Below, piece by piece: positions 4,042 through 29,003 of a DNA stretch of 64,000 bases. The DNA comes from Natrarchaeobius chitinivorans. GTDB taxonomy: Archaea > Halobacteriota > Halobacteria > Halobacteriales > Natrialbaceae. The stretch covers positions 1 to 64,000 of the forward strand of contig NZ_REGA01000007.1 of NCBI RefSeq assembly GCF_003841505.1, read 5' to 3'. Each line of letters starts with the position of its first letter. Position 1 is the first letter of the stretch. Position numbers and translations under genes: made by a program. Below the pieces are notes generated by a model, which saw only the letters and a list, made by a program, of their open reading frames with translations, searched no databases and was not told where the DNA came from.

Positions 4042-5031
4042 TCAGACCCATTCGAGTACCGCATTATGCGCTTCGAGATGCTTCGGAGAAACCGTGTTCT
4101 CGGGTAGTGAAATCCGCTCACCGGCACGATCACAAATGGTTTCACGCAGCAGTTGGCTGTCCGTCTCAAACTGGGGATTCACTTGCAAATGGAACTCAGC
4201 ATCGATTGTGAACAGCCTCCGATCGAATGCTGCATGATGGATCTTACTCAGCGGGAGGACATTCTGGAGGTCAGCTCGATATTCTGGATAATCCGACCAC
4301 GGAAGGATATGGGCAACGTCCAACAAAGCTGGATGGTCTACATCAGAGACAGCACAGGTCTGATCGAATTGATAGAGTGCAGTCGCTCGAAACTCGGGAT
4401 CAATTGCTCTGGCCTCTACTGTGGTTTCATAGGTACCAGCCATCATTGAATCCGACGTATCTGACTCCTCTGTCATTGTTGAGCCTGCCCACTCCTCTAC
4501 CGCGTTGTCGGCAAACTGACGCCCCTCAGCTGTCAGTGCGTACTGGTCACCATCTTTCTGAACAACACCGAGACTACGGAGCCAATTGACCCGCTGTAGC
4601 GCCATATCGTCGTTTGATGGATCCCAGCCAAGCTCGGGATGCGTGTTGAGCTGTTGTCGACTGACGCCTTCGATGGACATTGACCCCACAGACAGCGCAT
4701 AGAGCAAGCTCCGAAGTCCGAGATTTCGTCGACACATGATCTCGAGGAGGGTTTCAGTTGATCGATTAGCCAAATACCGTTGGCCCTCTGGGCCAAGGTC
4801 CCACTTATCGGCATGAACCTCGAGGAAGCCAACGTCCTCGAGATAGTCACACCGTCTCAAGATCGAATCCCGACTCGAGACCTGTTCAAACCGTCCTCGA
4901 TGCCAACCAACGAGTTCGTCCGTCGTTGGCTGTTGAGCCTCTACGCACTCAATGATTGCATCGAGTGTCTCGACGTAGCTTGTCGCTCCGCCAAACATCG
5001 GCACGATGCTTCGGAGCCGTTCAGACGACAT
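4042..5031 (-). CDS. HNH endonuclease-domain protein with winged-helix N-terminus
   Basis: This 329-residue protein has two parts. Residues 1-175 look like two winged-helix-type units, each ending in a charged strand pair (VHADKWDLGPEGQRYL and KDGDQYALTAEGRQF). Residues 210-275 form an HNH nuclease domain: C226 (QTCAVSD), the histidine of DVAHILPW at 241, N257 and the H265-H266 pair. Proteins of this layout are common next to restriction or plasmid genes in haloarchaea, and are presumed sequence-specific DNA-cutting enzymes. The stop at 4042 lies about 30 bp from the ISH3-like element, and there is no partner methylase nearby. The ATG at 5031 is preceded by an AT-rich stretch (TAGATCTACAATAC). 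Target and physiological role cannot be told. Confidence 0.7.
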   Translation of the reverse strand: MSSERLRSIVPMFGGATSYVETLDAIIECVEAQQPTTDELVGWHRGRFEQVSSRDSILRRCDYLEDVGFLEVHADKWDLGPEGQRYLANRSTETLLEIMCRRNLGLRSLLYALSVGSMSIEGVSRQQLNTHPELGWDPSNDDMALQRVNWLRSLGVVQKDGDQYALTAEGRQFADNAVEEWAGSTMTEESDTSDSMMAGTYETTVEARAIDPEFRATALYQFDQTCAVSDVDHPALLDVAHILPWSDYPEYRADLQNVLPLSKIHHAAFDRRLFTIDAEFHLQVNPQFETDSQLLRETICDRAGERISLPENTVSPKHLEAHNAVLEWV

Positions 5032-6654: not shown

Positions 6655-7893
6655 ATGACATTATTCAAGAGGTCTGAAGCCATCTTTGAGGATGAAAACG
6701 TCCTCCACGACGATTATCAGCCTAAATCACTTGAGGAGCGCGGCGACGAACTCGAGCAGTACACAGCGTATCTTCAACCCGTCATCAACGGTTCACAGCC
6801 TCGAAACATCTTTCTTTATGGGAAAACAGGTGTGGGGAAAACAGCCGCCACGAAGTATCTTCTTCACCATCTTGAGGAAGATGCCAAGCAGTACGACGAC
6901 ATCACGGTAACGACGGTCTATCTCAATTGCGAGGATCTGACCAGTAGTTATCGGGTTGCTGTGGAACTCGTTAATACGTTCCGTGACCCGTCCGAACAGA
7001 TCAGTCGCACGGGCTATCCGCTGAATGCTGTCTATAAAAAGCTCTGGGCAGAACTCGATCGGATCGGTGGAACGATTTTGATCGTCCTTGACGAAGTAGA
7101 CTACATCGGCGATGACGACTCGATTCTCTATCAACTTCCCCGTGCACGTAGCAATGAAAAAATCGAATATGCTCGTATCGGGATTATCGGAATTAGTAAT
7201 GATTTCAAATATCGAGAGAAGCTCGATCCACGTGTTGAAGATACCCTTTGCGAACGCGAACTCCACTTCCCACCATACGGCGCGAACAAACTCCAGAATA
7301 TCCTCGAAAAACGAGCAGCGCTAGCGTTCAAAGGTGGAATCCTCGAGGGCGATGTCGTTCCACTGTGTGCGGCGTTCGCTGCGCAGGACAAGGGCAGTGC
7401 CCGTCAAGGACTCGATCTGCTTCTCGAGGCTGGAGATCTGGCTCGTCGACGAAACGACCCCTTTGTCACCGAAGATCACGTCCGCGAGGCAAAGCAATTG
7501 CTCGAAAAGCAACGAATTGGAGAGAGCATGAAAGAGCTAACTTCCCACGGACACCTCACACTCTTAGCCGTGGTTACTTCTATGGTTACCGATCCATCGC
7601 AAGTCCCGTTCCAGAAACAACAGCTCTATGAGCAGTACCGCGATCTCACAGCCGCAACCAATCGCGATCCACTCGGTGGAAGAGCCTTCCATAATCATCT
7701 TGCTGAACTCTCGATGCTCGGTATCCTCGATCGAACGAAGCGAAACGAAGGCAGAGGTGGCGGGATCTATTACGAATACGAAATTGATGTCCCGATTGAT
7801 GCGGCCCTTTCGACACTCGAGAATCTGTATATGAGCGGCGAACTGGATCTGGAATCGCTTCGTCAGAACGCTGAAAGCCAGGGGTTTCTGTAG
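6655..7893 (+). CDS. orc1: Orc1/Cdc6 origin-binding initiator
   Basis: This 412-residue AAA+ protein recognises origin boxes and recruits the replicative helicase. Walker A is GKTGVGKT (56-63) and Walker B is LDEVD (145-149). Sensor-1-like ISNDFKYRE follows, then the arginine region LDPRVEDTL, typical of archaeal Cdc6. The last 120 residues form a winged-helix DNA-binding domain ending in GGIYYEYEID. Length and motif order are normal, so the gene should be intact. Four origin-box-like repeats precede it and a fifth follows it (7921-7949), so this protein very probably has its own origin here. The helicase-nuclease pair converges on it from downstream. Haloarchaea carry many orc paralogs, so the paralog number cannot be given. 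Confidence 0.93.
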   Translation: MTLFKRSEAIFEDENVLHDDYQPKSLEERGDELEQYTAYLQPVINGSQPRNIFLYGKTGVGKTAATKYLLHHLEEDAKQYDDITVTTVYLNCEDLTSSYRVAVELVNTFRDPSEQISRTGYPLNAVYKKLWAELDRIGGTILIVLDEVDYIGDDDSILYQLPRARSNEKIEYARIGIIGISNDFKYREKLDPRVEDTLCERELHFPPYGANKLQNILEKRAALAFKGGILEGDVVPLCAAFAAQDKGSARQGLDLLLEAGDLARRRNDPFVTEDHVREAKQLLEKQRIGESMKELTSHGHLTLLAVVTSMVTDPSQVPFQKQQLYEQYRDLTAATNRDPLGGRAFHNHLAELSMLGILDRTKRNEGRGGGIYYEYEIDVPIDAALSTLENLYMSGELDLESLRQNAESQGFL

Positions 7894-7970: not shown

Positions 7971-10838
7971 CTACACAGCCAATTCGGCGAGTTCAGCCTT
8001 GGACAGCGGATTAACCATGACTCGGTCGTTGTCAGCAGTGTAGAATATCGATGCCATCACGGTGCGATCACTGTACCACTCCTCGAGGACGTGGTAGTAG
8101 ACGCTGAGCTGGATTCGATACTCTGACTCGGCGTGACGGCCGAGATCAGTCTTGAAGTCGATAATCTCGACGGTATCGTCGGTCACGTGAACCAGGTCGA
8201 TAACCCCGGACAGTGTAACCTGTGTACCGTCAACCTCGAGCGGGAGGTACGCTCGCTCCTCGACCAGTAGCTCACCAGATAGTCCATCGAGGAACGTTTT
8301 GACGTGTCGTTCGTCGTCACTGGTGGGTGTAACCTCTTCACCGAGAGCGTAGTTTTCGGCGAACTCGTGTACGTGAGACCCGAAGTCCATTCCTCTCCCA
8401 TCGGAGACGTCCTCGTAAACGCTGTCGTCCATGAGCGAGTGTGGCGAATAGCCACGCGGTCCTGCCGGGGCTGGAATGTCGACGCTGAACGCCGTCTGCG
8501 TTTCCACGTCCACGTCGACGGACGAAACAGTCGGCTCGAGTTCGTCGATTTTGACTGGCAATTCCTCGAGGAACGTATTCGGCTCCTCTCCCGCCGCAAA
8601 CAACAGATGGTCTTCGGCGCGAGTCATCGCGACGTAGAGGAGGCGGCGTTCTTCGTCGTACTCGGTCGGCTGGCACAGTCGGAGGACGTCGGCTCGCCAG
8701 TTGTCGTAGACGTGTGGCTCACCGTGGGCGTCGGCGTAGCACTTCCGCTGACGGAGACCGATCGGCTCGTCGTACGTGATCGTTCCGCCGGACCCCCCGG
8801 AAGGTGGGAATTTGCCACTGTTCATATTCCCGAGAATCACGATCGGATGCTCGAGTCCCTTCACCGAGTGGATCGTCTGTACGGTGACCGAATCGGAGCC
8901 GGCAGCGGCCTCCACTTCCTGGGTATAGCCGTTGTCGACACCGTGTTCGATGATCCGGATCAGGTCGCCCCGCGTCATCGTCGTCGAGCGGTGGATCGAC
9001 TGGATCGTCGTGAGGACGACGTCCGCCGTCGACCCGTCGTATCCGTAGCGGTCGAACACACGCCGAGCAACGGCCGTGTGGGTCTCGAGTGCTGTGAGTT
9101 CGGAACGAAACGCATCCATTTCACTCGGATAGGCGTCGTGTTCGAGGACGTACTCGATCTCGTCGAGCGTGTAGCCGGCGCGCTCCAGTACGACCGCCCA
9201 CCCTCGTTCGGCCTCCGAGTTGGCCTCGAGGATCCGTAACCAGGCGAGCACCAGTTTCGCCTGATCAGTTCGGAAGAGTTCGATCCCTCCCTCGTACGCC
9301 ATCGGGAAGTCGAACGTCTCGGCGGTCGCGAGCAAGTCCCGCCCGAAATCGCGAGTTCGGGTGAGTACTGCGATATCGCCGTACGTCGGCGCTCGAAGTT
9401 CGCCGTCTTCTTCGACCGCATATTCGTCGTTGCCGACGATTTCCTGGATCTTTGTGAGGATCGCCTCGTGTTCGTCGGCGTGCTGGAACGCCTCGATTTG
9501 TGAGTGATCGTGGTCGGTGTTCGAAAACAGTGACACGATCCGCTCGAGAATCGACTTCTGGTCGATCGACTCGCGACTACTGCCCGGTGCTACGAGCGCG
9601 TGCTCGGAGAAGTCGAGGATCGACTGCGTCGAGCGATAGTTCTGCTCGAGTTCGATCGTGGTGACGGGTTCGAGCGGGAACGACACTCGCTCGGCATCGT
9701 CGTTCAGTTCGCCGGCAAAGCGCTGCAATCGAGCGTCGAACTCGGCGATGTTCTCGATCGCCGCGTACTGAAACGAGTAGATGCTCTGTTTCCAGTCACC
9801 GACAACGCAGAAATTGTCGGTTCCCGAGAGCAGCAGTGCGAGTTTGAACTGAATCTCGCTCGAGTCCTGAAACTCGTCGATCATCACGTACTCGAACTCC
9901 AGTGATTCGCGAAGGTCGCCGTCCTCACAACACAGGACGAACGCGAAGAGCTGAAGGAACGAGAAGTTCAGATAGTTCCGCCCGAGTGCGAACTCGAGGT
10001 ATTTAAAGTAGACGTCGTGGACGAACTCCACGAGATGATCGCGATCCTCGGTGAAGACCAGTCGAGCGACGTCTTCGGGGACCGACTTCGAGCCGTACTC
10101 ACCACGGAGTTCTCCTCGGTCGGGTGCATCCGGCAGATAGCACTTGTTCTTGCCATATCGGCCGAGACTCGAACGGAGTTTCGACTGTTTGTTGCCATCG
10201 TTTCGCGGCCGGTTCAGCTCGTCGAAGGTAGCTTTGAACGCCTCGAAGTCGCCCTCGAGTACGTCTCTGGAGTTGCGGTACCAGCCGTCTGCAGTCGGAA
10301 AGATGCCCTTCGAGGCGAGATTGTTGATGAGACTGAGCAGTTCCGTCGGATCCGAGAGGCAGCGAAGCAGGTCGTCGTATTCGTCGTGATCATCGCTAAA
10401 TCGGTCGACGAACTCGTGGAAGTACTCCCGTTCGATCGTCTCGTTCTCGAGGACCTGCGTCGAGCCGGTGATCGCGTCGTCGATACCGAGATACGAAGGG
10501 GCGTGAAAGCCGTGCTGGTCGAGAATATCGTTACACAGGCTGTGGAAGGTCTGAATCGGAGCGTCGTTTAGCGCCCGCATATCGTAGTCGCAGCTGGCGA
10601 CGATTCGATCTTTCATCTCCGACGCCGCATTGCGTGTGAACGTGATCAACAGGACGTCGTCGGGGTCGACGTCGTCCTGATCGACGATGTTCGCATACCG
10701 ATGGGTCACCGTGAACGTCTTGCCGGTCCCGGCGCCGGCGTCGACGAGGTACAGTCCGTCTGTGTTCTCGATGAGTCGTTGCTGACGTTCGTTCGGTGAC
10801 AGCCCCTCGTCCAGTGACGCGTCGGACGACGATGTCAT
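7971..10838 (-). CDS. AddA-like UvrD-family helicase with C-terminal nuclease domain
   Basis: The 955-residue protein begins with a UvrD/Rep-type helicase core. Walker A is AGAGTGKT near residue 35, Walker B is MIDEFQDSS near 318, EQNYRST and the C-terminal helicase motifs (TIHSVKGLEHPIVILGN, LLYVAMTRAEDHL) follow. The end is a PD-(D/E)XK nuclease: GSHVHEFAENY, then GVIDLVHV...VEIIDFKTD near 880-896. This is the plan of AddA and RecB, enzymes that resect double-strand breaks, though it is shorter than bacterial AddA (about 1200). It overlaps the AddB-like gene upstream by 4 bp (10835-10838), which argues for one complex. Both lie tail to tail with orc1, inside the repeat-bracketed module. A role in processing replication-linked ends is inferred. 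Confidence 0.85.
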   Translation of the reverse strand: MTSSSDASLDEGLSPNERQQRLIENTDGLYLVDAGAGTGKTFTVTHRYANIVDQDDVDPDDVLLITFTRNAASEMKDRIVASCDYDMRALNDAPIQTFHSLCNDILDQHGFHAPSYLGIDDAITGSTQVLENETIEREYFHEFVDRFSDDHDEYDDLLRCLSDPTELLSLINNLASKGIFPTADGWYRNSRDVLEGDFEAFKATFDELNRPRNDGNKQSKLRSSLGRYGKNKCYLPDAPDRGELRGEYGSKSVPEDVARLVFTEDRDHLVEFVHDVYFKYLEFALGRNYLNFSFLQLFAFVLCCEDGDLRESLEFEYVMIDEFQDSSEIQFKLALLLSGTDNFCVVGDWKQSIYSFQYAAIENIAEFDARLQRFAGELNDDAERVSFPLEPVTTIELEQNYRSTQSILDFSEHALVAPGSSRESIDQKSILERIVSLFSNTDHDHSQIEAFQHADEHEAILTKIQEIVGNDEYAVEEDGELRAPTYGDIAVLTRTRDFGRDLLATAETFDFPMAYEGGIELFRTDQAKLVLAWLRILEANSEAERGWAVVLERAGYTLDEIEYVLEHDAYPSEMDAFRSELTALETHTAVARRVFDRYGYDGSTADVVLTTIQSIHRSTTMTRGDLIRIIEHGVDNGYTQEVEAAAGSDSVTVQTIHSVKGLEHPIVILGNMNSGKFPPSGGSGGTITYDEPIGLRQRKCYADAHGEPHVYDNWRADVLRLCQPTEYDEERRLLYVAMTRAEDHLLFAAGEEPNTFLEELPVKIDELEPTVSSVDVDVETQTAFSVDIPAPAGPRGYSPHSLMDDSVYEDVSDGRGMDFGSHVHEFAENYALGEEVTPTSDDERHVKTFLDGLSGELLVEERAYLPLEVDGTQVTLSGVIDLVHVTDDTVEIIDFKTDLGRHAESEYRIQLSVYYHVLEEWYSDRTVMASIFYTADNDRVMVNPLSKAELAELAV

Positions 10839-13501
10839 CGACTCACCTCCGGTTTCCGCTCTGTGGCTGAAGTCGCAGAATCAGTCTGTGCGTCGTCTCG
10901 AGCGGATCGCGAGTCGGTGAGCAGCATATCGCGGTTGTTCACGTAGCGGTAGTTCGGCTCGCCGGCGCGGCCGGCGACGGGAAAGCGATCCTCGCCGCGG
11001 CGGTAGCGGTTCAACTCCGCGAGTTGCTCGTCGATGAACCGTTCGAAGTTGTCGAGATCTTCGACGAAATAGCCTTCCGTCCGATAGCCACAGAGATGTC
11101 TAAATGCCTGTACGCAGCCGTTTTTGACATACTTGTAGTCGCCGACGTCGTCGATCATTCGCTCGACGAGTGCCTCGCCGAACGGTGAGGCCGCCATCTC
11201 GTCTGCATCCCTCGTTCTGGGAATCTCGTGGGAATCGAACACCGTCAGATACGTTTCGTAGCAGGTCTTCGAGAACGTCTTATTGCAGTCGTTAGCGGCG
11301 TCTTCGCAGAGTGCATCGAAGACCGACCGGGACTGAACGAACTCGTCGAACGCGATTGGGTGGTAGGTCACCGTCGTGAGACAATCCTCGAGAGAGGCGT
11401 CTCCGCTGACGACATCGTCGATCGTCTCGAGGAAGTGGAAAAACGTAAACGCCAGTCGCTCGTCGGGCTGTTGGTGTCGCCAGTAGGTGAGATAGAGTAC
11501 CGCCTGGAAGTTTGGCCTGTCGCTCGGCGTCTCAATTGAGGCGTGTTTCGTGACTTGGGATGCAGTGTTCCTGCGTCCGCTCTTGAAATCGACCAGCTGC
11601 GTCGGCGACTGGACGAGGTCGATTTTTCCGTTGAGTCCCAGGCTCTCGTCTTCGAACCAGCGTTCAGTGACCGGTGAATCGACCGTTCGATCGAAGTACT
11701 CCGCGAAGAAGTTTCGTCCCCAGCCGCTCGAGGGGGTCAGGAACGTCGTATCGGATGGTGCGTGTTCGTCGAGGTACTCACAGATCGTCTCGAGTCCGAT
11801 TCGGTATCGCGTTCGGCGCGTCTCGATATCGACGTTCCGGTGGAACGCACGCGTCTCCTCGATCATGACCTCGACGACCTCCTCGAGGCGATCATCGTCG
11901 ACAGCCTCGGGATGATTCACGACGAATTCGGCGAAGTCGTGGAAGAGGTTCCCCTCGGCGAAGTAGTGTTTATCGGGCGTCTCGACGAGTCGCCCGAAAA
12001 AGTAGTCTCGTGGGGAGTTCGCGTACGCGTTGAGACTCGACTGACTGATCGTCTCGACAGATTTGGGTTCGACGTCCGCGGTAAGTGGTTCTGTCTCGAA
12101 TCCGTTGTCGACCGTTCGATCCGGGCGCGTGTGGCGAATCGACTCGAGGTCGCTGAAGCGCTCGAAGTCGGTCTCGAGAAGATCCTCGAAGTACAGACAC
12201 GGCGTGACGGGCGAGCCGCCGGCTGAATCCTGAACCAAATAGTACTGGTCGACGCCACTTTGGAGGAGCGACTGGAACCCCTCGATGTTTCGCTCGTACT
12301 CCTCGTCGCGATCGACCCATGGGCGGTTCGGCGAGTCGTGTGTCCAGCGTTCGTCGAGACCCAGATAGAAGACGACCGGTCGGTCAACGAACGAAGCCGA
12401 TTTTGCATCCGCCAGCAAGACCCCCTCGTTGTCCCGGTCGATCGGGACGTCGTAGGTCTCGAGATAGAACGTAAGCTGATCGATCGCCTTCGGAGTCATC
12501 GATTCTTCGAGCACGTCCAGATTCTCGAGTTCGTCGCGAAACGCCTCGAGCGTTCGTCCCGTTCGATCTTCGTATGCGTTCAACGCCTCCGCAAACGTGA
12601 GTTCGTTCGCCCGACTGGTGAACTCCTGGAGCCAGTCGACTTCCGAGTCGTCGACGTCGGAGAGACACTTCTCGTCGTGTTCGACGGATACCGTCGCACC
12701 GAGACACGTGAGCAACGGCTTGACGGACCGGACACGGGTATCGGAGCCAGCAGTCGTACAGCGGAGCAACTGGACGAACGCGCGGTGGTCGCGCTGGTCC
12801 ATGAATCCAGGGCCGCCGTAGTATGGAATCCCTGCGGTCTCGAGTGCCGATTCGACGAGCGGCGAGTACTCGCTCCCAGCGTCGAGCACGATCGCGATGT
12901 CAGTTGCGTTTTCACGCGTCACGGAATCGAGTACCGCGTCGACGATAGCCGCCGGTGACTCGAAGATTCTGAACGGCGGCATTTCGACGGGGGTGTCGGT
13001 GAATCGGTCAATCGAATCGTACTCCGTGGGAAGAATCGAACGCTCGAGGTTCGTCAGTTGGCGTTCGCCGACGACCGCGATCGACTCGTCTGAACCGACG
13101 TCGATCTCATAGTCTGCAAGAAGACGCGAGGACGTCTGCAGCGAGTCGATGATATCGACGACCGTCCGTGTCGCCGGCGTATCGAACGCCTCGTACTCGA
13201 AGATTCCGTCAGCGGTTCCTTCGTATTCCCAACACTGGAGGACGTTCCCGACCGTGTAGGCGATCTGCTTCCAGCTCAACTCGGTCTCGTCGATCACCTC
13301 GAGAAATGCGGTTCGGTCCTCTGCAGTTTCTCGTCGTCTCGTTGCGAGCCGTCGGGGTGTGATCGCGAACGGGCCAAAATGTGATCGCTCGAGGCGCCGG
13401 TTGAGAGCATCCGCGAGCGGTGAGTCGGGAACGATCACGAGGTCGTAATCGGTGACCTCCTGATACAGCCGATCGATCGATTTCGACTGCTTGAATAACA
13501 C
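10835..13501 (-). CDS. AddB-like nuclease subunit (PD-(D/E)XK)
   Basis: The GTG at 13501 opens 888 residues. The N-terminal half is a degenerate helicase-like fold without a clear Walker A, as in AddB partners. The C-terminal part has a nuclease domain: YFAEGNLFHDFAEFVVNHPE, then GLNGKIDLVQSPTQLVDFKSGRR near residue 625-645, giving the D...DFK signature. Several cysteines flank this domain (CEDAANDCNKTFSKTC, CVQAFRHLC). They could include the iron-sulfur cluster ligands known in AddB, though the exact spacing differs from what I remember. The ATG of the AddA-like gene overlaps its stop. Together they probably form a two-nuclease resection enzyme. Upstream lies the second direct-repeat copy. 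Confidence 0.78.
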   Translation of the reverse strand: MLFKQSKSIDRLYQEVTDYDLVIVPDSPLADALNRRLERSHFGPFAITPRRLATRRRETAEDRTAFLEVIDETELSWKQIAYTVGNVLQCWEYEGTADGIFEYEAFDTPATRTVVDIIDSLQTSSRLLADYEIDVGSDESIAVVGERQLTNLERSILPTEYDSIDRFTDTPVEMPPFRIFESPAAIVDAVLDSVTRENATDIAIVLDAGSEYSPLVESALETAGIPYYGGPGFMDQRDHRAFVQLLRCTTAGSDTRVRSVKPLLTCLGATVSVEHDEKCLSDVDDSEVDWLQEFTSRANELTFAEALNAYEDRTGRTLEAFRDELENLDVLEESMTPKAIDQLTFYLETYDVPIDRDNEGVLLADAKSASFVDRPVVFYLGLDERWTHDSPNRPWVDRDEEYERNIEGFQSLLQSGVDQYYLVQDSAGGSPVTPCLYFEDLLETDFERFSDLESIRHTRPDRTVDNGFETEPLTADVEPKSVETISQSSLNAYANSPRDYFFGRLVETPDKHYFAEGNLFHDFAEFVVNHPEAVDDDRLEEVVEVMIEETRAFHRNVDIETRRTRYRIGLETICEYLDEHAPSDTTFLTPSSGWGRNFFAEYFDRTVDSPVTERWFEDESLGLNGKIDLVQSPTQLVDFKSGRRNTASQVTKHASIETPSDRPNFQAVLYLTYWRHQQPDERLAFTFFHFLETIDDVVSGDASLEDCLTTVTYHPIAFDEFVQSRSVFDALCEDAANDCNKTFSKTCYETYLTVFDSHEIPRTRDADEMAASPFGEALVERMIDDVGDYKYVKNGCVQAFRHLCGYRTEGYFVEDLDNFERFIDEQLAELNRYRRGEDRFPVAGRAGEPNYRYVNNRDMLLTDSRSARDDAQTDSATSATERKPEVSR

Positions 13502-17817: not shown

Positions 17818-18831
17818 ATGCCAGTTAACACGGACGACCTACCAACTGATCTAAAACGGCTTGATCGTGCGATTGAACAAGATATTGATATCATCGGTGA
17901 ATTTGAAAATGGAGTTTATCTAATCAATGGTAATAGAGATCTCAATTACCTAGTAAACATGAATGAGTTTACCTGTACGTGCCCTGACTGGCGGAAAGAG
18001 GGAGTCGCAGGTGGATGCAAACATATCCTAAAAGTAAGAATGCACGGTTCTGACGCACCATGTATTAGTATACAAACAGGAAGCAGAGCAACCAATAACG
18101 CGAGTGATTCTACAAGCTCTTCGTATCCAGGAGACTGGAGTAGCCGCCGCAAAAAAGTCCTCAAACGAGACGAACACATTTGTCAATCATGTGGTGCACA
18201 TGTAGAACAAGATGGAACCAATGCCGAGGTTCATCACTCGACCTATCTCAAAGAAGGCGGCTCAAACGACCTAGAGAACTTGCTCACGCTTTGTACAAGC
18301 TGTCACAAACGACTACACAGCAGTCCAGTCAAAGCCTCACAGGCTGTAACAGATTCATCTGAAAACTCCAGATCTACGGGCGCTAGTTCCAGCGATCATT
18401 CACCCTCGAGCCAAGAGACGCCAAAAGTGGACGCACCACCGGTAAATTCGCCATCCGCGGATAAGCGAACTCAAAGTTCGAAGAAGCCCCGTTCACTAAA
18501 CAGGAACACTTCCAGTCACCGACAAACCAAGTCAAAGAACAATAGTAAACATCCTCACCAAAAGCGAGATCACAATTCAAAAACACCGGCGACAGCAGCT
18601 ACCTCTACGGCTCAGCAAATCGATAGGGAGACAGTGGAAAATGAACACGATCTTGGTTTCTCCAGCATATTTCTTGGAGGGATTGTTTTATCCCTAGTAC
18701 TTTGGGGTACTCTAGAAGTTCTCTTGATGGTACTTAGCTCGATGACAACATGGTCAGCAACGCGCTTTATCTTAGTCCTTGGAATAGTGGAAACAGCGGT
18801 CATTGTCGGTTATCTCAACGAAGGAACGTGA
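17818..18831 (+). CDS. SWIM zinc finger - HNH nuclease - membrane anchor fusion
   Basis: This 337-residue protein has three clear parts. Residues 45-72 hold a SWIM finger (CTCPDW...GGCKH, ligands C53, C55, C67, H69), a small DNA- or protein-binding motif. Residues 105-168 hold an HNH nuclease domain with CXXC pairs at C122/C125 and C159/C162 and the histidines of EVHHSTY. A low-complexity Ser/Lys/His-rich linker (about 170-275) leads to two membrane helices near 281-305 and 313-332. A nuclease tied to the membrane is unusual and fits a sensor or invader-DNA role. The gene stands alone. Base composition is lower in GC than its neighbours, suggesting transfer. Function is inferred from domains only. 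Confidence 0.7.
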   Translation: MPVNTDDLPTDLKRLDRAIEQDIDIIGEFENGVYLINGNRDLNYLVNMNEFTCTCPDWRKEGVAGGCKHILKVRMHGSDAPCISIQTGSRATNNASDSTSSSYPGDWSSRRKKVLKRDEHICQSCGAHVEQDGTNAEVHHSTYLKEGGSNDLENLLTLCTSCHKRLHSSPVKASQAVTDSSENSRSTGASSSDHSPSSQETPKVDAPPVNSPSADKRTQSSKKPRSLNRNTSSHRQTKSKNNSKHPHQKRDHNSKTPATAATSTAQQIDRETVENEHDLGFSSIFLGGIVLSLVLWGTLEVLLMVLSSMTTWSATRFILVLGIVETAVIVGYLNEGT

Positions 18832-19113: not shown

Positions 19114-22100
19114 TCAGCCAAGTCGCGAGAGAAGCGCTGTCGCCCGGTCGTTCGCGTCGGCTCGGTCGACCCCGGTTTCGACGAGCCGTTCGACCATCCG
19201 AAGTCGGATCTGGTCGTCGTCTAGGGGGTCAGTCGGTTCGATGTAGCCGTTTTCCTCGAAATACGTCTCGAGTTCGTCGGTCTTGTCGCTGTGGAACCGA
19301 TTGACCTCCCCGTTTCGCAGTCCCTCAATGATCCCTTCGGCGTCACCATTGACTGATTCCGCGAGATCAGTGACCCTGTCGATGAAGTTGTCGCTGACGG
19401 CGCCGGAGTCCTCGAGGATCTGCCGGTCGACGGGTTCGCCGCGACCGACCTTCCATGCCTTCACGAAGGCGTCGAACCCGGCGGCGTTCTGTCGAACGGG
19501 TTCCAGTCGATCGGGGTCGTCAACGGCGAGGGCTCCGTTGCCGCGCTCGAGCAGGTTCTTGAGTTGGCCCCAGCGGTCGATCCCGAGTTTCAGCAATTCG
19601 TAGAGCATCTCGGGATCATCGACGACGTACCAGAGGTGTGCGGTTCCGGCCCCGCGATGGGGGTTGAACGACGGAACGTCCAGCTCCTCGCCGTAGGTTT
19701 CGTGATTGTGTCCGTCGGGGCGTGGCGGCTCGGGTACCTGGGCGGAAATCTCGTCGATGTCGGGTACCTGTACAGTTCGGTCGAGGTCGCGTGCGTCCGC
19801 CAGATCGATCACTGAGTGGTCGACGGCGTCAGTATCCTCGAGTGCGGCAAGCCACTTCGCTACCTCGTCGCCCTGTGCGGTGAAGTAAAACACCTGCCGG
19901 CCTGCTCGCGCGAGTTCGATCATCGACTCGATGATCACGTCGGCCCGCAGGTCGTCCGAATTTGCGAGTGTTTCGTCGAGGAGAAGCGGCAGCTGGACGT
20001 CTTGCTCCTGTTGCTCGACGAACGCGATTCGGACGGCCAGCAGCACCTGCAGACGGGTACCACTTGAAAGCTCGTCTAATGCAAAGCCCTTCCCCTTGGC
20101 CGTATCGAAGGCCCGGAACGAGGTTTCGTCTTCGTCGAGATCCAACCGATACCGGCCACGGGTGATTGTCGTCAAAATCTCTCGAGCGCGTTCGAAGACC
20201 ACCGGCCGACCAGCCTCCAGCGTGGTTTCCTGGACGTGTCCGACGAGTACGTCACCGACCATCGCAGCGGAGTCTGACTCGAGTTGGCCCCGAAGCGATT
20301 CCAGCGCACGCTCCTTTGCTGTGATCGCCGCCTCGACCGCATCATTGCGTTTAGCCTGGTCGATCTTCGTCTCGATCTCGGCGATATCGTCGCGGATCTC
20401 GTCGTATCGATCGGCGACCTCCACCGCTTCCCGCTTCTCGTCCTCAAGTTCGGGGACGGTTCGCTTTTCGAGGCCCGGATCGTACTCCGCGTACGCCTCA
20501 AGGTCGGAGCGTTCGTTCTCGGCGACGGCTTTAGCCGATTCGACGTCTTTCACTGCTTGCTCGTAGTCGTCGACCTGCTCGCACAGGTGTCGGAGTGCGT
20601 CACGGTCACCGGGCTCGAGATCGAGATCGATGAAGACGGTGTCTCGCTCTGTCTCGAGTGATTCGATTTTCTCGGTGGCCTCTTCGATCGTCCCCTGGGT
20701 GCGCTCGAGCGTCGATTTCGCCGACTCATGCCGACTCTCACGCCGTTCGAGGTCTCGGATCACCTCCGTCGCTGGCGCCGCGTCCGCGACGTCATCGTAG
20801 CCGTACGGTTCCAGCTCGGTATGGAGCTGTTCGCGGAGCGAAGCAATCTGTCGCTCGACTGACTCGAGTTCTTGCTGGAGCCCAACTACGTCGTCGTGGG
20901 CCTCCTGCCAGTCGAGGATCCGCTTCGTGAGGACAGTGAGTTCCACGTCGGTGGCGTCCGGACTCGCACCGAGTCGCTCTTGAAGCTCTTCGCGCGTCTC
21001 CTCGAGCGATCGTTGCTTTGCTTCGAGGTTCTCCTGGTCAGGGACGAGCGTTTTGTGCAGCTGGTTACGCTCTTGGGCCACCTCATACTGGGCAAGCGCA
21101 TCGTAGAGTTCGACCAGCCGGGCGTGGACATCGTCTTCCGTCCAGGAGTCCGGAGCGGCCACACCAGTCCCCTCGAACGACTCGCGGTATGGCCGCCGCG
21201 GATCGTGGCCGGTGTCCGTCGGTTTCCGGTTGCGGTAGCCGTACAGGAAGACCCCGGCCGCCGCCAGCAACGTCACGAAAAGTGCCGGATTGACCAGCAG
21301 TCCGAGCGCGATGCCGGCTACTGAGAGCATCGCAGACGAGACGAGGGCGATCCGATAGGCGGCATCGTCCGTCTCGGTATTGTCAGGTGACGGCGTCGCT
21401 AACCACTGCTCCAGCGACTGACTGGCCCGCTGCAGTGTCGCTCGATCACTGTCGAACCAGTCTACCTCTGCGTCCTCGAAGTGGGACTCGATCGCCGCTC
21501 GAGACTCGCGTTCGGCCCGCACTGACTCTGCCCGCCGGGCGAATCGCGAGACGTCCTTCCACGTGACGGGATCGAACTCAACTAGTTCGTCTTGATTGAC
21601 CTCGAGGGGGATATCATGACGAGCGTTTGCTCGAGACGCTTTGACACTTTCGAGCTCTGCCTCGAGATTCCGTTTCCGGTCTTGAGCCCCCTCGAGTTCG
21701 TCCCTGCGTTTCTTCAGTTGATCAATACGGCCGGTGGGGACGCCTTCGTTTGGAAGCTCGACGTCACCGAGTTGCTGGCGGGCCTCCCGTCGTTCAGCTT
21801 CGGCCGCATTTCGTTTCTCCGTCCATTCCTGAATTTCGTCTTCGAGTCCATCCACCGTCTTGAGTTCGTTGCCGTCGACGCGCTCGAGGACATCAGAGAA
21901 CTCGTCGAGTTCTGCCTGCGCCGCTTGCAGCTCGTCGCGGGTCTCGACGTACTCGATCGCTTGGTCGAGTAAGTCAACCTTCGCCTTCGCGTCTCTCGCT
22001 TCCTCGAGGGCGTCCTGGAGCGTCGAGAGCCGGTCCCGTTCCCGCTGAAGATCGGTGACGTCAGCCTGCGCCTCACGCCACTGCTGGACTGCGTTCTCCG

Positions 22101-22596
22101 CCTCTTTGACCTCGCTCTTGCGGCGCGTATTCGGCGTGTCGTCGTATCCCAGTTCATCGTGGACCGCCGCGAGGTCGTAGCCTCCGGCGGACTCGCGTTC
22201 GATGGTTTCGGCGAAGCTCTCGTTGCGGGTATCCTGCTGGAGGAGATCATGCAGCGAGAGCTGGTAGCGGTCGCGGTGGTCGGCGGTCGGGAGCGGTGGC
22301 CCGTTCGCGTCTTGGCCGTTGCGTTGGTAGGAGACACGTCCGCCGTCCAGTTCGATTCGCCAATCCGTCCCGTTTAGCGAGAGGGAGCCGAGGACGGTCG
22401 CTCGATCAGCGCTGGTCTCCGGCCAGAGCAGCCACTGGATCGCCTCGGCCATGGTCGTCTTCCCAGCCGCGTTCGGGCCGTGAACGACGTTGATACCCGG
22501 AGATACGTCCTCGACCGCGACCCCCTCAGACTCAAACCCAGGGGCGCGGACGAGGTCGACGCTGTCCAACGTGAGCCCCTCTGCGTCCTCGGTCAT
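19114..22596 (-). CDS. YhaN/Rad50-like ATPase with coiled coils and membrane helices
   Basis: The 1160-residue protein has Walker A GPNAAGKT (40-47) and then long heptad coiled coils (about 165-400 and 460-800). Two adjacent hydrophobic helices break the coils at about 413-452 (ALVSSAMLSVAGIALGLLV...). The ABC signature LSSGTRLQVLLAVRIAF and Walker B LPLLLDET lie near 835-870. This is the plan of SMC/Rad50 ATPases, and the mid-coil membrane pair is a YhaN feature. About 240 further residues follow the ATPase core, with helix-hairpin-like pieces; I do not recognise them. Its start overlaps the stop of the phosphoesterase gene by 4 bp. The pair should form an SbcCD/Mre11-Rad50-like DNA end-processing complex, perhaps at the membrane. 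Confidence 0.82.
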   Translation of the reverse strand: MTEDAEGLTLDSVDLVRAPGFESEGVAVEDVSPGINVVHGPNAAGKTTMAEAIQWLLWPETSADRATVLGSLSLNGTDWRIELDGGRVSYQRNGQDANGPPLPTADHRDRYQLSLHDLLQQDTRNESFAETIERESAGGYDLAAVHDELGYDDTPNTRRKSEVKEAENAVQQWREAQADVTDLQRERDRLSTLQDALEEARDAKAKVDLLDQAIEYVETRDELQAAQAELDEFSDVLERVDGNELKTVDGLEDEIQEWTEKRNAAEAERREARQQLGDVELPNEGVPTGRIDQLKKRRDELEGAQDRKRNLEAELESVKASRANARHDIPLEVNQDELVEFDPVTWKDVSRFARRAESVRAERESRAAIESHFEDAEVDWFDSDRATLQRASQSLEQWLATPSPDNTETDDAAYRIALVSSAMLSVAGIALGLLVNPALFVTLLAAAGVFLYGYRNRKPTDTGHDPRRPYRESFEGTGVAAPDSWTEDDVHARLVELYDALAQYEVAQERNQLHKTLVPDQENLEAKQRSLEETREELQERLGASPDATDVELTVLTKRILDWQEAHDDVVGLQQELESVERQIASLREQLHTELEPYGYDDVADAAPATEVIRDLERRESRHESAKSTLERTQGTIEEATEKIESLETERDTVFIDLDLEPGDRDALRHLCEQVDDYEQAVKDVESAKAVAENERSDLEAYAEYDPGLEKRTVPELEDEKREAVEVADRYDEIRDDIAEIETKIDQAKRNDAVEAAITAKERALESLRGQLESDSAAMVGDVLVGHVQETTLEAGRPVVFERAREILTTITRGRYRLDLDEDETSFRAFDTAKGKGFALDELSSGTRLQVLLAVRIAFVEQQEQDVQLPLLLDETLANSDDLRADVIIESMIELARAGRQVFYFTAQGDEVAKWLAALEDTDAVDHSVIDLADARDLDRTVQVPDIDEISAQVPEPPRPDGHNHETYGEELDVPSFNPHRGAGTAHLWYVVDDPEMLYELLKLGIDRWGQLKNLLERGNGALAVDDPDRLEPVRQNAAGFDAFVKAWKVGRGEPVDRQILEDSGAVSDNFIDRVTDLAESVNGDAEGIIEGLRNGEVNRFHSDKTDELETYFEENGYIEPTDPLDDDQIRLRMVERLVETGVDRADANDRATALLSRLG

Positions 22597-23894
22597 GCTT
22601 CGGCCTCCGTTTGTTCCAGCAGCGTATCGAGGACCAGCCTAGCCTGTGTTTCGAGCGTCTCTATCGCATCGTCTCTGTCGGGACGGTCTATGTCTGTCTC
22701 CTGCCTGAGCACGGTGTACGCGCTGGCGTTGTGGGCCTGGCGCATAGCGTCCAGTGATTCCCCGAGGAGTCGTTCGTTCTCGTCGCTCAGCTCGCCATTC
22801 TTGAGTTCTATGAGCAGCTTGGCGACGGCCGCGACCGCGTCGTCGCCCGTAGCGCGCTCCTCGAGGTCGACCTCCGGTCGCGTGTCGACTTCGACGGCCT
22901 CGATGCGGACGTCGGCCGAGCCCGCCCTGGTACCTAGCTGCTCCCGGATCGCGTCACTTCGATCGACGAGATCTGCGTGGGCTTCCGTCCGGCCCATGAG
23001 TCGGATACAGGGGAGTATGAGTTCCAGTGATCCGTGCCCCGACAACGACTCAACGTGTTCTCGGAGGCGGTCGGAGATTTTCGGCATGGCGGCCTTCGGA
23101 TCCTCGATACCGGAGACGTCGATCTCGAGGGTATCATAGCGGACTGTCGAGAGCGGGATCCGTTCAACAGCCGGCTGGTCGTTCGAGTCAATTGATAGCA
23201 ACCACGGACCGTGAGGACCTGATTCACCCGGATCAAGTGCCTGTGGTGATCCCGGATAACAGACCAACGGGTTGGACTTATTCGGGATCGACGGTCTGTG
23301 AATGTGGCCAAGCAGCCACGCCATCACCGGCTTCTCACGAAGGTCGGCGAGTTCGACTGGCGCATACGGGCTCTCCCGAGAGCCAAGATCGGCGTGCAGG
23401 ACGCCAATTCGCGGTACGTTGCTGTCGGGCAGGTCGTACGACTCAAGCGGGGACTCATAGACGTGCTCGTCAGGGAACGACCAGCCGTCGAAGCGGACGA
23501 GCGGCTGGCCGTCGCGCTCGAGAGTCCAGTAGTCCCATGTCCCGTCCTCCCCGAGTAGGTGGAGGCTCTCGAGCTCGAGATCGCGCTGGATTCGTGGAAA
23601 CACGTCGAAATCATGGTTTCCGGCCACTGCGACGACGGGAATGTCGGCGGCGTCAAGTCGAGCGGCGCCGTCCTCAAAGGCACCGTAAGCCTCGAAATAC
23701 TTGTTCTCTCGATCGGCGACGTCGCCGCTGATTGCGACCGCATCGACGTCGCGCTTGATGGCCTCTCGGACGATATCTCGCCAGACGGCAGTCGGCGAGA
23801 ACTCGGGACTATCTAAATCTTTGGGGATCCGACTGGAGTGACGTCCTAGGTGAATGTCACCCGTACAGAGGATCGTAATTTCATCCCGCACCAT
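22593..23894 (-). CDS. YhaO/Mre11-like metallophosphoesterase nuclease
   Basis: This 433-residue protein shows all calcineurin-type metal-binding motifs in order: D13-I-H15, GD58, GNHD 92-95, the histidine of LHADLGS and GHIHRP. Mre11/SbcD proteins use these for manganese-dependent nuclease activity on DNA ends. The region after the catalytic domain is acidic and helical and would contact the ATPase. It starts at ATG 23894 with TATA-like TATATAAATCC about 35 bases upstream. The following gene overlaps by 4 bp and encodes the YhaN/Rad50-like partner. The haloarchaeal mre11-rad50 pair is separate, so this is likely an accessory paralog used in repair or defence. Confidence 0.85.
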   Translation of the reverse strand: MVRDEITILCTGDIHLGRHSSRIPKDLDSPEFSPTAVWRDIVREAIKRDVDAVAISGDVADRENKYFEAYGAFEDGAARLDAADIPVVAVAGNHDFDVFPRIQRDLELESLHLLGEDGTWDYWTLERDGQPLVRFDGWSFPDEHVYESPLESYDLPDSNVPRIGVLHADLGSRESPYAPVELADLREKPVMAWLLGHIHRPSIPNKSNPLVCYPGSPQALDPGESGPHGPWLLSIDSNDQPAVERIPLSTVRYDTLEIDVSGIEDPKAAMPKISDRLREHVESLSGHGSLELILPCIRLMGRTEAHADLVDRSDAIREQLGTRAGSADVRIEAVEVDTRPEVDLEERATGDDAVAAVAKLLIELKNGELSDENERLLGESLDAMRQAHNASAYTVLRQETDIDRPDRDDAIETLETQARLVLDTLLEQTEAEA

Positions 23895-24389: not shown

Positions 24390-24950
24390 ATGAGTACGGA
24401 TCAGCCACTGCAGAGCGACCCGCATCGGAACGAATCGGCCCAGACAGACACAAGCGATCGAGACCGCAGCTATCCAGGTGACGTTGCCCACCTACACGGA
24501 CATGAGCTCGTCGCCATTGACGAGTGGCTCCTCGGCACGGAGCCGTCACCGTACGAGATTGACCTGACTGAGGGTCACGAATACCCGACACGCTACTGGC
24601 GCTGCAGAAAATGTGGACACGAACGCGGCCGTCGAGACGAGTTCACCAGCCCTTGTGACACCCCACAGCCACCAACTGCACTCGAGGCGGGTGGGTACTC
24701 GATCGACGAACCACGAACTCGCCGTGCACTTACCGAAGATATAGACGTACGATTCGGCCAACAAGGACCCGTCTATACCGTCCTCAGCGAGAGTGGAACA
24801 ACGTACGTAGTCGACGTCGAAAAAGAGACGTGCACCTGCCCTGATTTCGAACAGCGCCAACCAGACGGGGGTTGCAAGCATCTCCGCCGTGTTGACCTCG
24901 AGATTCGGACTGGACTTGTTCCTGCACCAGATGGGACGTTCGTTCGGTAA
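24390..24950 (+). CDS. SWIM zinc finger protein
   Basis: The 186-residue protein contains a C72-X2-C75...C89 cluster (RCRKCGHERG) that may bind zinc. A C-terminal SWIM finger is complete: CTCPDFEQRQPDGGCKH with C148, C150, C162 and H164. SWIM domains bind DNA or proteins; small SWIM proteins are common on haloarchaeal plasmids and have no settled function. The finger resembles that of the SWIM-HNH fusion at 17818 (CTCPDW...GGCKH), so the two may recognise related targets. The start at 24390 is supported by the nearby leader hairpin. It is followed by a zone of decayed genes. Confidence 0.72.
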   Translation: MSTDQPLQSDPHRNESAQTDTSDRDRSYPGDVAHLHGHELVAIDEWLLGTEPSPYEIDLTEGHEYPTRYWRCRKCGHERGRRDEFTSPCDTPQPPTALEAGGYSIDEPRTRRALTEDIDVRFGQQGPVYTVLSESGTTYVVDVEKETCTCPDFEQRQPDGGCKHLRRVDLEIRTGLVPAPDGTFVR

Positions 24951-26525: not shown

Positions 26526-27029
26526 ATGAAACTCGTCTCGGTTGCGGCACTCGACGAAAACCGAGTAATCGGAAAGGACGGTGACGTCCCCTGGCGCTTG
26601 CCCAAGGACGTCGAACAGTATCGGGCTCGAGTCGCCGACTCGCCGGTCATCCTCGGTCGGCGAACGCACGACGAGATGAACGCTGACCCTGCTGGGTCAC
26701 ACCGGATCGTCCTGAGTCGCACCCGGTCCGACAGTGACGATGCCACGACGACGTACGTCTCGTCGGTCGAAGCGGCCATCGAGACGGCAGCGGCGACGGA
26801 CTCGAGTACGGCGTACGTTCTGGGCGGTGAATCGATCTACGAACTCTTCCAGCCCCACGCCGACGAGATGGTGCTGACTCGAGTGGCCGGCGACCACGAC
26901 GGTGATTCGTACTTCCCGTCCTGGGAACGCGACGAGTGGCGAGTCGACAATCGGACGTCGTACGAGTCGTTTACTGTCGAAAAATGGGTCCGGTCCGACC
27001 GACCGGCAGTTATCGACGTTGTGAATTGA
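26526..27029 (+). CDS. folA: Dihydrofolate reductase
   Basis: The 167-residue protein starts MKLVSVAALDENRVIGKDGDVPWRLPKDVEQYRARV, the DHFR signature with the catalytic region GDVPWRLPKD. Next come VILGRRTHDEM for NADPH binding and AYVLGGESIYELFQPHADEMVLTRV at the far end of the fold. It reduces dihydrofolate to tetrahydrofolate with NADPH, in the cytoplasm. Length is normal for haloarchaeal DHFR, and the codon use is that of a high-GC core gene. No thymidylate synthase lies next to it. The gene sits between copies of the palindromic repeats ahead of parA, so it is enclosed in the predicted partition region. Confidence 0.93.
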   Translation: MKLVSVAALDENRVIGKDGDVPWRLPKDVEQYRARVADSPVILGRRTHDEMNADPAGSHRIVLSRTRSDSDDATTTYVSSVEAAIETAAATDSSTAYVLGGESIYELFQPHADEMVLTRVAGDHDGDSYFPSWERDEWRVDNRTSYESFTVEKWVRSDRPAVIDVVN

Positions 27030-28007: not shown

Positions 28008-29003
28008 ATGATTACCGTTGTCGTCTACTCGGAATCGGGCGGGACGTTCAAAACCACGACGACCGCTAACCTTGCGGCGGCGTGGGCTCGGATGGGGCTG
28101 GACGTCTGCGTCATCGACCTCGATCCACAGGAGGGGAATTTGACGAGTCTCTTCGACGTGGGCGAGCACCGAAGCGATCCCGACGTGGACAACCTGGTCA
28201 AACACATCCTCGAGATGCCCGACGGTGACTTCGACGACCTGATCGAGACGTCCGACGAGGGGGTAGACGTCATCCCAAGTCACGACATGCTCAGCGACTT
28301 CACGTCGAATCTCGAGCAGAAGATTTCCTACGAGACGGGGATGAAGAACATGAGCAAAGCGGAGTATCCACGGTACGAACTCCTCCACGAGTTGCTCTGG
28401 GAGAAGCAGGCGTTACACGAAGAGTACGACGCCGTTCTCATCGACCCGAACGCCCGCGCGGAAGACCTCCTTTACAATGCTATCTTTGCCCTCCGCACGC
28501 TCGTCGCCCCGGTCAAACCCGCAGGAAAAGGCAACCTGAGTCTGGACGGACTCGAAGAGCTCGTAGCGAACATGAGCGACGAACTAGATATACAGATCGG
28601 GCTTTCCTGTGTCATCCCATCTGGTGTCGGACAAACCAACGCCCACCAGCAGTACTACAAACAGTTCGACGGAACCGACGAGTTCGATACCCCGGTCGCC
28701 ATCGCAGACCGAGAGAGCTTGATGGACACGATGTGGGAGGCCCGAGGATCGGCGTTTAAAGTCCTCGAAGAGGGGTGGAAGACGTTCGAAGACGACGGTG
28801 AGATGGTCAGTGAGCCGGGGCACCGTAGAGTGCGAGACAGGGAAGTAGAAACGCTGTGTGATCTCTACGAGCTCGCGGCGTTTATCGCCACCGACACGTT
28901 CGGCGTCGACGTCGATACGGAACTGGTCCTCGACATCCAGGACGACGAACCGAGGACGTTCGACGTCCGAGAACGGGCGGAAACGGAGGTCGTGACACGA
29001 TGA
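28008..29003 (+). CDS. parA: ParA-family partition ATPase
   Basis: This 331-residue protein begins MITVVVYSESGGTFKTTTTANLAAAWARMGLDVCVIDLDPQEGN, the deviant Walker A of ParA/Soj, with D in VLIDPNA as Walker A'/B. The usual signature lysine (KGG) is replaced by serine (S10-GG), as I recall for a haloarchaeal ParA branch. ParA drives movement of plasmid copies over the nucleoid with a DNA-bound partner. The stop overlaps the start of the partner gene (ATGA, 29000-29003). The palindrome cluster upstream is the likely binding site and operator. With Orc1 at 6.7 kb it marks this as an independently maintained replicon. Confidence 0.85.
   Translation: MITVVVYSESGGTFKTTTTANLAAAWARMGLDVCVIDLDPQEGNLTSLFDVGEHRSDPDVDNLVKHILEMPDGDFDDLIETSDEGVDVIPSHDMLSDFTSNLEQKISYETGMKNMSKAEYPRYELLHELLWEKQALHEEYDAVLIDPNARAEDLLYNAIFALRTLVAPVKPAGKGNLSLDGLEELVANMSDELDIQIGLSCVIPSGVGQTNAHQQYYKQFDGTDEFDTPVAIADRESLMDTMWEARGSAFKVLEEGWKTFEDDGEMVSEPGHRRVRDREVETLCDLYELAAFIATDTFGVDVDTELVLDIQDDEPRTFDVRERAETEVVTR

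Follow-up and report, generated by a model that had tools for sequence, protein, structure and literature searches.

Type IV modification-dependent restriction enzymes such as EcoKMcrA have an N-terminal recognition-type domain followed by an HNH domain. A related HNH domain is found in the haloarchaeal protein described here, encoded in a stretch of 64,000 nucleotides from Natrarchaeobius chitinivorans that is called the window below. A group of haloarchaeal HNH proteins with C-terminal membrane helices, annotated only as 'HNH endonuclease', shares with this protein the HNH domain, a variable linker and the helices. Haloarchaeal SWIM proteins of about 197 aa contain the same SWIM region (mostly 28–37% identity); they are common in the family and one of them is encoded in the window (Table 1). 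ZorE of the type II Zorya system is similar to the HNH part of the protein (32.1 and 36.7 bits). The adjacent pair of genes resembles Mre11-Rad50/SbcCD, Lamassu and Bacillus YhaO-YhaN in that an Mre11-like gene and an SMC-like gene stand in tandem. The match of the ATPase to AAA_27 is above the cut-off, and it is through AAA_27 that we liken this ATPase to YhaN.

The sequence-only reading that preceded this work knew of no described family with the domain order SWIM, HNH, linker and membrane helices, and our literature searches likewise returned none. More specifically, neither a SWIM-HNH nor a membrane-HNH family was found in the literature on haloarchaea. A study on plasmid vesicles describes HNH genes near replication regions and does not mention SWIM (PMC10818511), and a BREX survey includes auxiliary HNH effectors without SWIM (PMC12839542). 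As far as the searches reach, the SWIM-HNH fusion is new; its two domains are known ones, and HNH proteins with a membrane anchor are common among haloarchaea.

Results

The SWIM-HNH gene is a single open frame starting from ATG (Table 1). A SWIM finger, an HNH domain, a linker and two terminal helices had been read from the sequence as parts of one chain, and Pfam, composition, hydropathy, the AlphaFold model and relatives all agree with this. The SWIM match (PF04434) scores 18.0 bits, slightly below the curated cut-off of 19.6, while the HNH match (PF01844) reaches 45.9 bits as compared to a cut-off of 21.4. Four aligned fusion members agree without exception at C53, C55, C67 and H69 of the SWIM finger and at the HNH residues. 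In the fifth member (genome G478) the CxCxnCxH motif is visible, CECPDWKKNQPGGGCKH, and the HNH motifs are likewise present. The fusion is also matched over this region by about 30 SWIM proteins retrieved from haloarchaea. In the AlphaFold model both the SWIM and HNH domains are confident and the two helices lie at the positions given in Table 1. The linker of the window protein is rich in S and T, with K, R and H. A basic linker as a conserved DNA-binding feature was considered and rejected, as three other members, when checked, proved to have acidic linkers.

Table 1. Location of the SWIM-HNH gene, its parts and other genes of the window
Feature	Position	Strand	Basis
SWIM-HNH-linker-membrane hairpin protein, 337 aa	17818..18831	+	ORF, Pfam, relatives
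SWIM zinc finger, aa 44–73, CxCx11CxH (C53, C55, C67, H69)	17947..18036	+	Pfam SWIM; invariance in four aligned members
HNH nuclease domain, aa 107–168; zinc cysteines C122/C125/C159/C162; H139, H140, N154, H163	18136..18321	+	Pfam HNH, conservation, confident model
Low-complexity Ser/Thr/basic linker, aa 169–281, predicted disordered	18322..18660	+	Composition; pLDDT ~45
Two C-terminal membrane helices, aa 282–308 and 314–335	18661..18822	+	Hydropathy; helices in model
Rad50/SMC-like ATPase, membrane hairpin in coiled-coil region (aa 412–451), convergent neighbour	19114..22596	-	Pfam AAA_23, AAA_27; Walker A, signature, Walker B
Mre11/SbcD-like nuclease, overlaps ATPase gene	22593..23894	-	Metallophos 48.2 bits; SbcD/Mre11 matches; motifs
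Separate SWIM protein, 186 aa, related to the SWIM half of the fusion, on the other side of the pair from it	24390..24950	+	Pfam/relatives
UvrD helicase with nuclease domain and PD-(D/E)XK partner (AddAB-like), same island	7971..13501	-	Pfam
HTH-like N-terminal part and HNH_2 domain	4042..5031	-	
Orc1/Cdc6, plasmid-type	6655..7893		Close relatives are plasmid initiators
Dihydrofolate reductase, between the Mre11/Rad50-like pair and ParA	26526..27029	+	119.7 bits
ParA-like	28008..29003		

The sequence-only reading had named unconserved HNH residues as a finding that would speak against it. The residues turned out to be conserved. In an alignment of 51 HNH domains, 49 have H139 and all have N154, two positions left free by the selecting pattern; H140, H163 and the zinc cysteines, which this pattern did fix, are likewise present in 51 of 51. 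The best solved relative by sequence is EcoKMcrA (6ghc, E=1.4e-11), and it holds rank 1 by fold as well (E=2.4e-3). All predicted catalytic and zinc residues of the HNH domain are intact.

Exhaustive searches in four families (125, 146, 28 and 170 genomes) revealed SWIM-HNH fusions in 5 of 469 genomes. A relative encoded on a plasmid of Halapricum desulfuricans aligns to 95% of the query at 28% identity (E=6e-23) and shares all four parts; profile searches brought in three further members, from genome G283, Halorubrum vacuolatum and genome G478. The SWIM-HNH order is thus held by homologues in four other genomes at 27–31% overall identity, and because of this recurrence the predicted architecture is not a chance one. 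A phylum-wide sample of 393 genomes contained no further fusion at 1e-40. In the window's own family, SWIM relatives were found in 110 and HNH relatives in 116 of 125 genomes. Taken separately, the two halves are ordinary; it is the fusion to SWIM that is rare. Because of its shortness, the HNH domain does not yield a resolved tree; a topology that unites the fusions is not rejected (p-AU 0.74), which is in line with a single fusion event. In phages we saw short HNH matches and no fusion. Single-sequence scans of the genome_contigs and viral_contigs sets and a two-row alignment scan of viral_contigs gave no match; the back-translated patterns used were strict, so that these scans are weak evidence of absence from viruses.

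The membrane helices have a different distribution. C-terminal membrane helices occur in 39 of the 58 distinct nearest haloarchaeal HNH frames that lack SWIM, i.e. a C-terminal membrane anchor is typical of these proteins. Reading of the fusion sequences shows a clear membrane hairpin in the window and Halapricum proteins and one clear plus one probable helix in the G283 protein. The H. vacuolatum fusion ends in a tail without membrane helices, beta-rich in appearance, and the G478 fusion has a shorter form of this tail, also without helices. Two of the five members lack helices, so the family can do without the tether. The window protein, with its two terminal helices, fits the idea of a membrane-tethered nuclease, but the anchor is neither unusual nor common to all the fusions.

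The contig of the window is 172 kb long, has no tRNA gene and carries a plasmid-type Orc1/Cdc6 gene and a ParA-like gene, so it is plasmid-like. GC content is lower and uneven (~43–65%) at window positions 1–28000 and mostly 58–68% past ~30000, which suggests that the first 28000 positions are an island of acquired genes. A dihydrofolate reductase gene also lies in this part (Table 1). None of the ten window proteins scanned with PADLOC models could be assigned clearly to a named defence system. The best score of the ATPase was a partial match to LmuB (61.8 bits), LmuA and LmuC had no match among the ten proteins, the UvrD helicase matched helicase models broadly and no Zorya genes were seen among the scanned neighbours.

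The sequence-only reading also pointed to a nuclease/ATPase pair in the next large genes, one of them with membrane helices. This is borne out by Pfam matches and by the hairpin in the ATPase. The hydrophobic hairpin, at about residues 410–450, is found in all 17 members checked; Walker A is present in all, and the signature and Walker B in most. At high identity, relatives of this accessory pair occur in about 20 of 392 genomes of the order, often on plasmids, and most pairs have no SWIM-HNH gene. In the window, the SWIM-HNH gene is convergent with the pair at a distance of 282 bp, and in Halapricum it lies 205 bp downstream of the same kind of pair. These are two of the five fusion loci; the pair is absent from the examined neighbourhoods of the other three, and G283 is missing from the genomes in which an order-wide search matched the Mre11-like protein. 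According to the ATPase tree, the window and Halapricum pairs are not sisters, and the SWIM-HNH gene has opposite orientations relative to the pair in the two loci. Juxtaposition has thus arisen twice, or has been lost and rearranged many times. GC3 of the SWIM-HNH genes is 0.31–0.40 in four of five cases, as compared to 0.52–0.75 in the measured neighbours. This difference in base composition suggests that the SWIM-HNH gene and the pair arrived separately.

Partner genes of the pair vary between plasmids and include MrfAB-like genes, a gene for an NrS-1 HBD-domain protein, HNH_2 and AddAB-like genes. Other copies of the pair are accompanied by MrfAB-like helicase and RNase H-like genes. The window's own HNH_2 gene (Table 1) has relatives directly upstream of the pair in L118, L119 and L121, each from a different genome, and in Salinigranum (L100) a SWIM gene follows the pair.

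The sequence-only reading supposed that a nuclease at the membrane might meet incoming DNA, as in some anti-phage or anti-plasmid systems, and the neighbourhood survey did find defence-type genes near its relatives. The H. vacuolatum locus contains a PglX-like methylase and a helicase that scores 1803 bits as BrxHII, far above DrmD, for which reason a DISARM label was rejected for it. Near the G283 fusion there is a type IIG-like restriction-methylation gene. The Halapricum locus has CARF and CARF-PIN genes together with Mre11/Rad50-like and AddAB-like pairs. In G478 a pAgo gene (1066 bits), UvrD and PD-(D/E)XK genes, CARF and CARF-PIN are found. The G478 island spans L164 1686–15018 and L165 2952–4467 and holds pAgo, helicase/nuclease genes, two HNH genes and the CARF/CARF-PIN pair. 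In a small control set of 20 large genes, taken from two stretches elsewhere on the window's contig, there was a single PADLOC match at 1e-20. It is important to note that the association with defence is guilt by location, and plasmids collect such genes.

Discussion

Patchy distribution (5 of 469 genomes) and AT-rich composition indicate that the SWIM-HNH gene is an accessory, mobile gene. We give an even chance to the reading that its product would be an accessory, membrane-tethered DNA nuclease of a plasmid-borne defence or DNA-processing island, with a likeness to type IV (McrA-like) restriction enzymes. No signal peptide was seen, from which we infer that the N-terminal domains are placed in the cytoplasm. 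The nuclease would then be suspended from the cytoplasmic side of the membrane by a tether of about 110 residues. The SWIM finger may replace the recognition domain of McrA-like type IV enzymes and bind DNA or a partner, and the HNH domain could nick or cut foreign or damaged DNA close to the membrane. The protein would probably act by itself or supplement other DNA-processing systems; in the window and in Halapricum the membrane-anchored Mre11/Rad50-like pair is a candidate partner.

The main rival to the defence reading is plasmid DNA repair. According to it, the protein is an auxiliary repair or recombination nuclease of large haloarchaeal plasmids, which joins Mre11/Rad50-like and AddAB-like enzymes in acting on plasmid DNA that is broken or newly arriving, and immunity is not its purpose. 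The presence of both kinds of gene pair in the window and Halapricum loci fits with this, as do the MrfAB-like helicase and RNase H-like genes, known from repair in Bacillus, that accompany the pair elsewhere. However, three of the five SWIM-HNH genes lack the pair in their examined surroundings and are accompanied instead by BREX-, pAgo-, CARF- or restriction-type genes, and the base composition of the gene differs from that of the pair. We consider repair somewhat unlikely as the explanation.

Could the protein belong permanently to a membrane-bound complex with the Mre11/Rad50-like pair? In the two genomes known to have both, the spacing is 205–282 bp although the pairs are not sisters, membrane hairpins are present in the ATPase as well as in the HNH protein, and a different HNH_2 gene adjoins the pair in three other loci. 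On the other hand, relative orientation is opposite in the two loci, SWIM-HNH is missing from most pairs and, as noted above, three fusions, including that of G283, are found apart from it. Given the AT-rich composition of the gene, unlike that of the pair, and its apparently separate movement, a fixed complex is not established, and we find it improbable. An extended form of this idea has a slim chance of being right: the SWIM-HNH protein and the pair would make up a membrane-bound DNA surveillance machine, in which the ATPase, anchored by the hairpin of its coiled-coil arms, takes hold of DNA as it comes in at the envelope, the ends are processed by Mre11 and the tethered HNH domain cuts, the HNH and helicase modules being exchangeable in other plasmids.

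A selfish homing-type HNH gene that inserts between genes and has little host function would account for a single AT-rich gene in varied settings with a very patchy distribution, but it is very doubtful, since we know of no homing enzyme with an N-terminal SWIM finger or a membrane hairpin and since two fusions adjoining non-sister Mre11/Rad50-like pairs are unexpected under random insertion.

If the reading as an accessory defence nuclease is true, haloarchaea would guard the cytoplasmic side of their membrane, the entry point of virus and plasmid DNA, with a nuclease, and SWIM fingers would be seen to guide enzymes of the restriction type to their targets. Membrane-HNH proteins as a wider group are common in haloarchaea and, within the reach of our searches, undescribed, so that a function found for one could carry over to many annotated 'HNH endonucleases'. 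The membrane-hairpin Mre11/Rad50-like pair with its shifting partners is of at least equal interest.

Comparison with known systems

The haloarchaeal membrane-HNH proteins differ from the fusion in having no SWIM finger and in the number of helices, which ranges from one to four. The small haloarchaeal SWIM proteins have neither HNH nor membrane helices. Similarity to ZorE is restricted to the HNH part, and its 32.1 bits compare with an equivalog cut-off of 600. The neighbouring pair is set apart from Mre11-Rad50/SbcCD, Lamassu and YhaO-YhaN by the membrane hairpin in the coiled coil of the ATPase, found in every member checked.

As regards the McrA-like type IV enzymes, no modified-base sensor (SRA, McrA N-domain etc.) was found N-terminal to the HNH domain, where there is SWIM only, and we therefore do not file the protein as a type IV member. 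It has a SWIM finger where those enzymes have an McrA-type or SRA sensor and adds a long disordered linker and a membrane hairpin to an HNH domain whose likeness to that of the type IV enzymes is known from sequence and fold.
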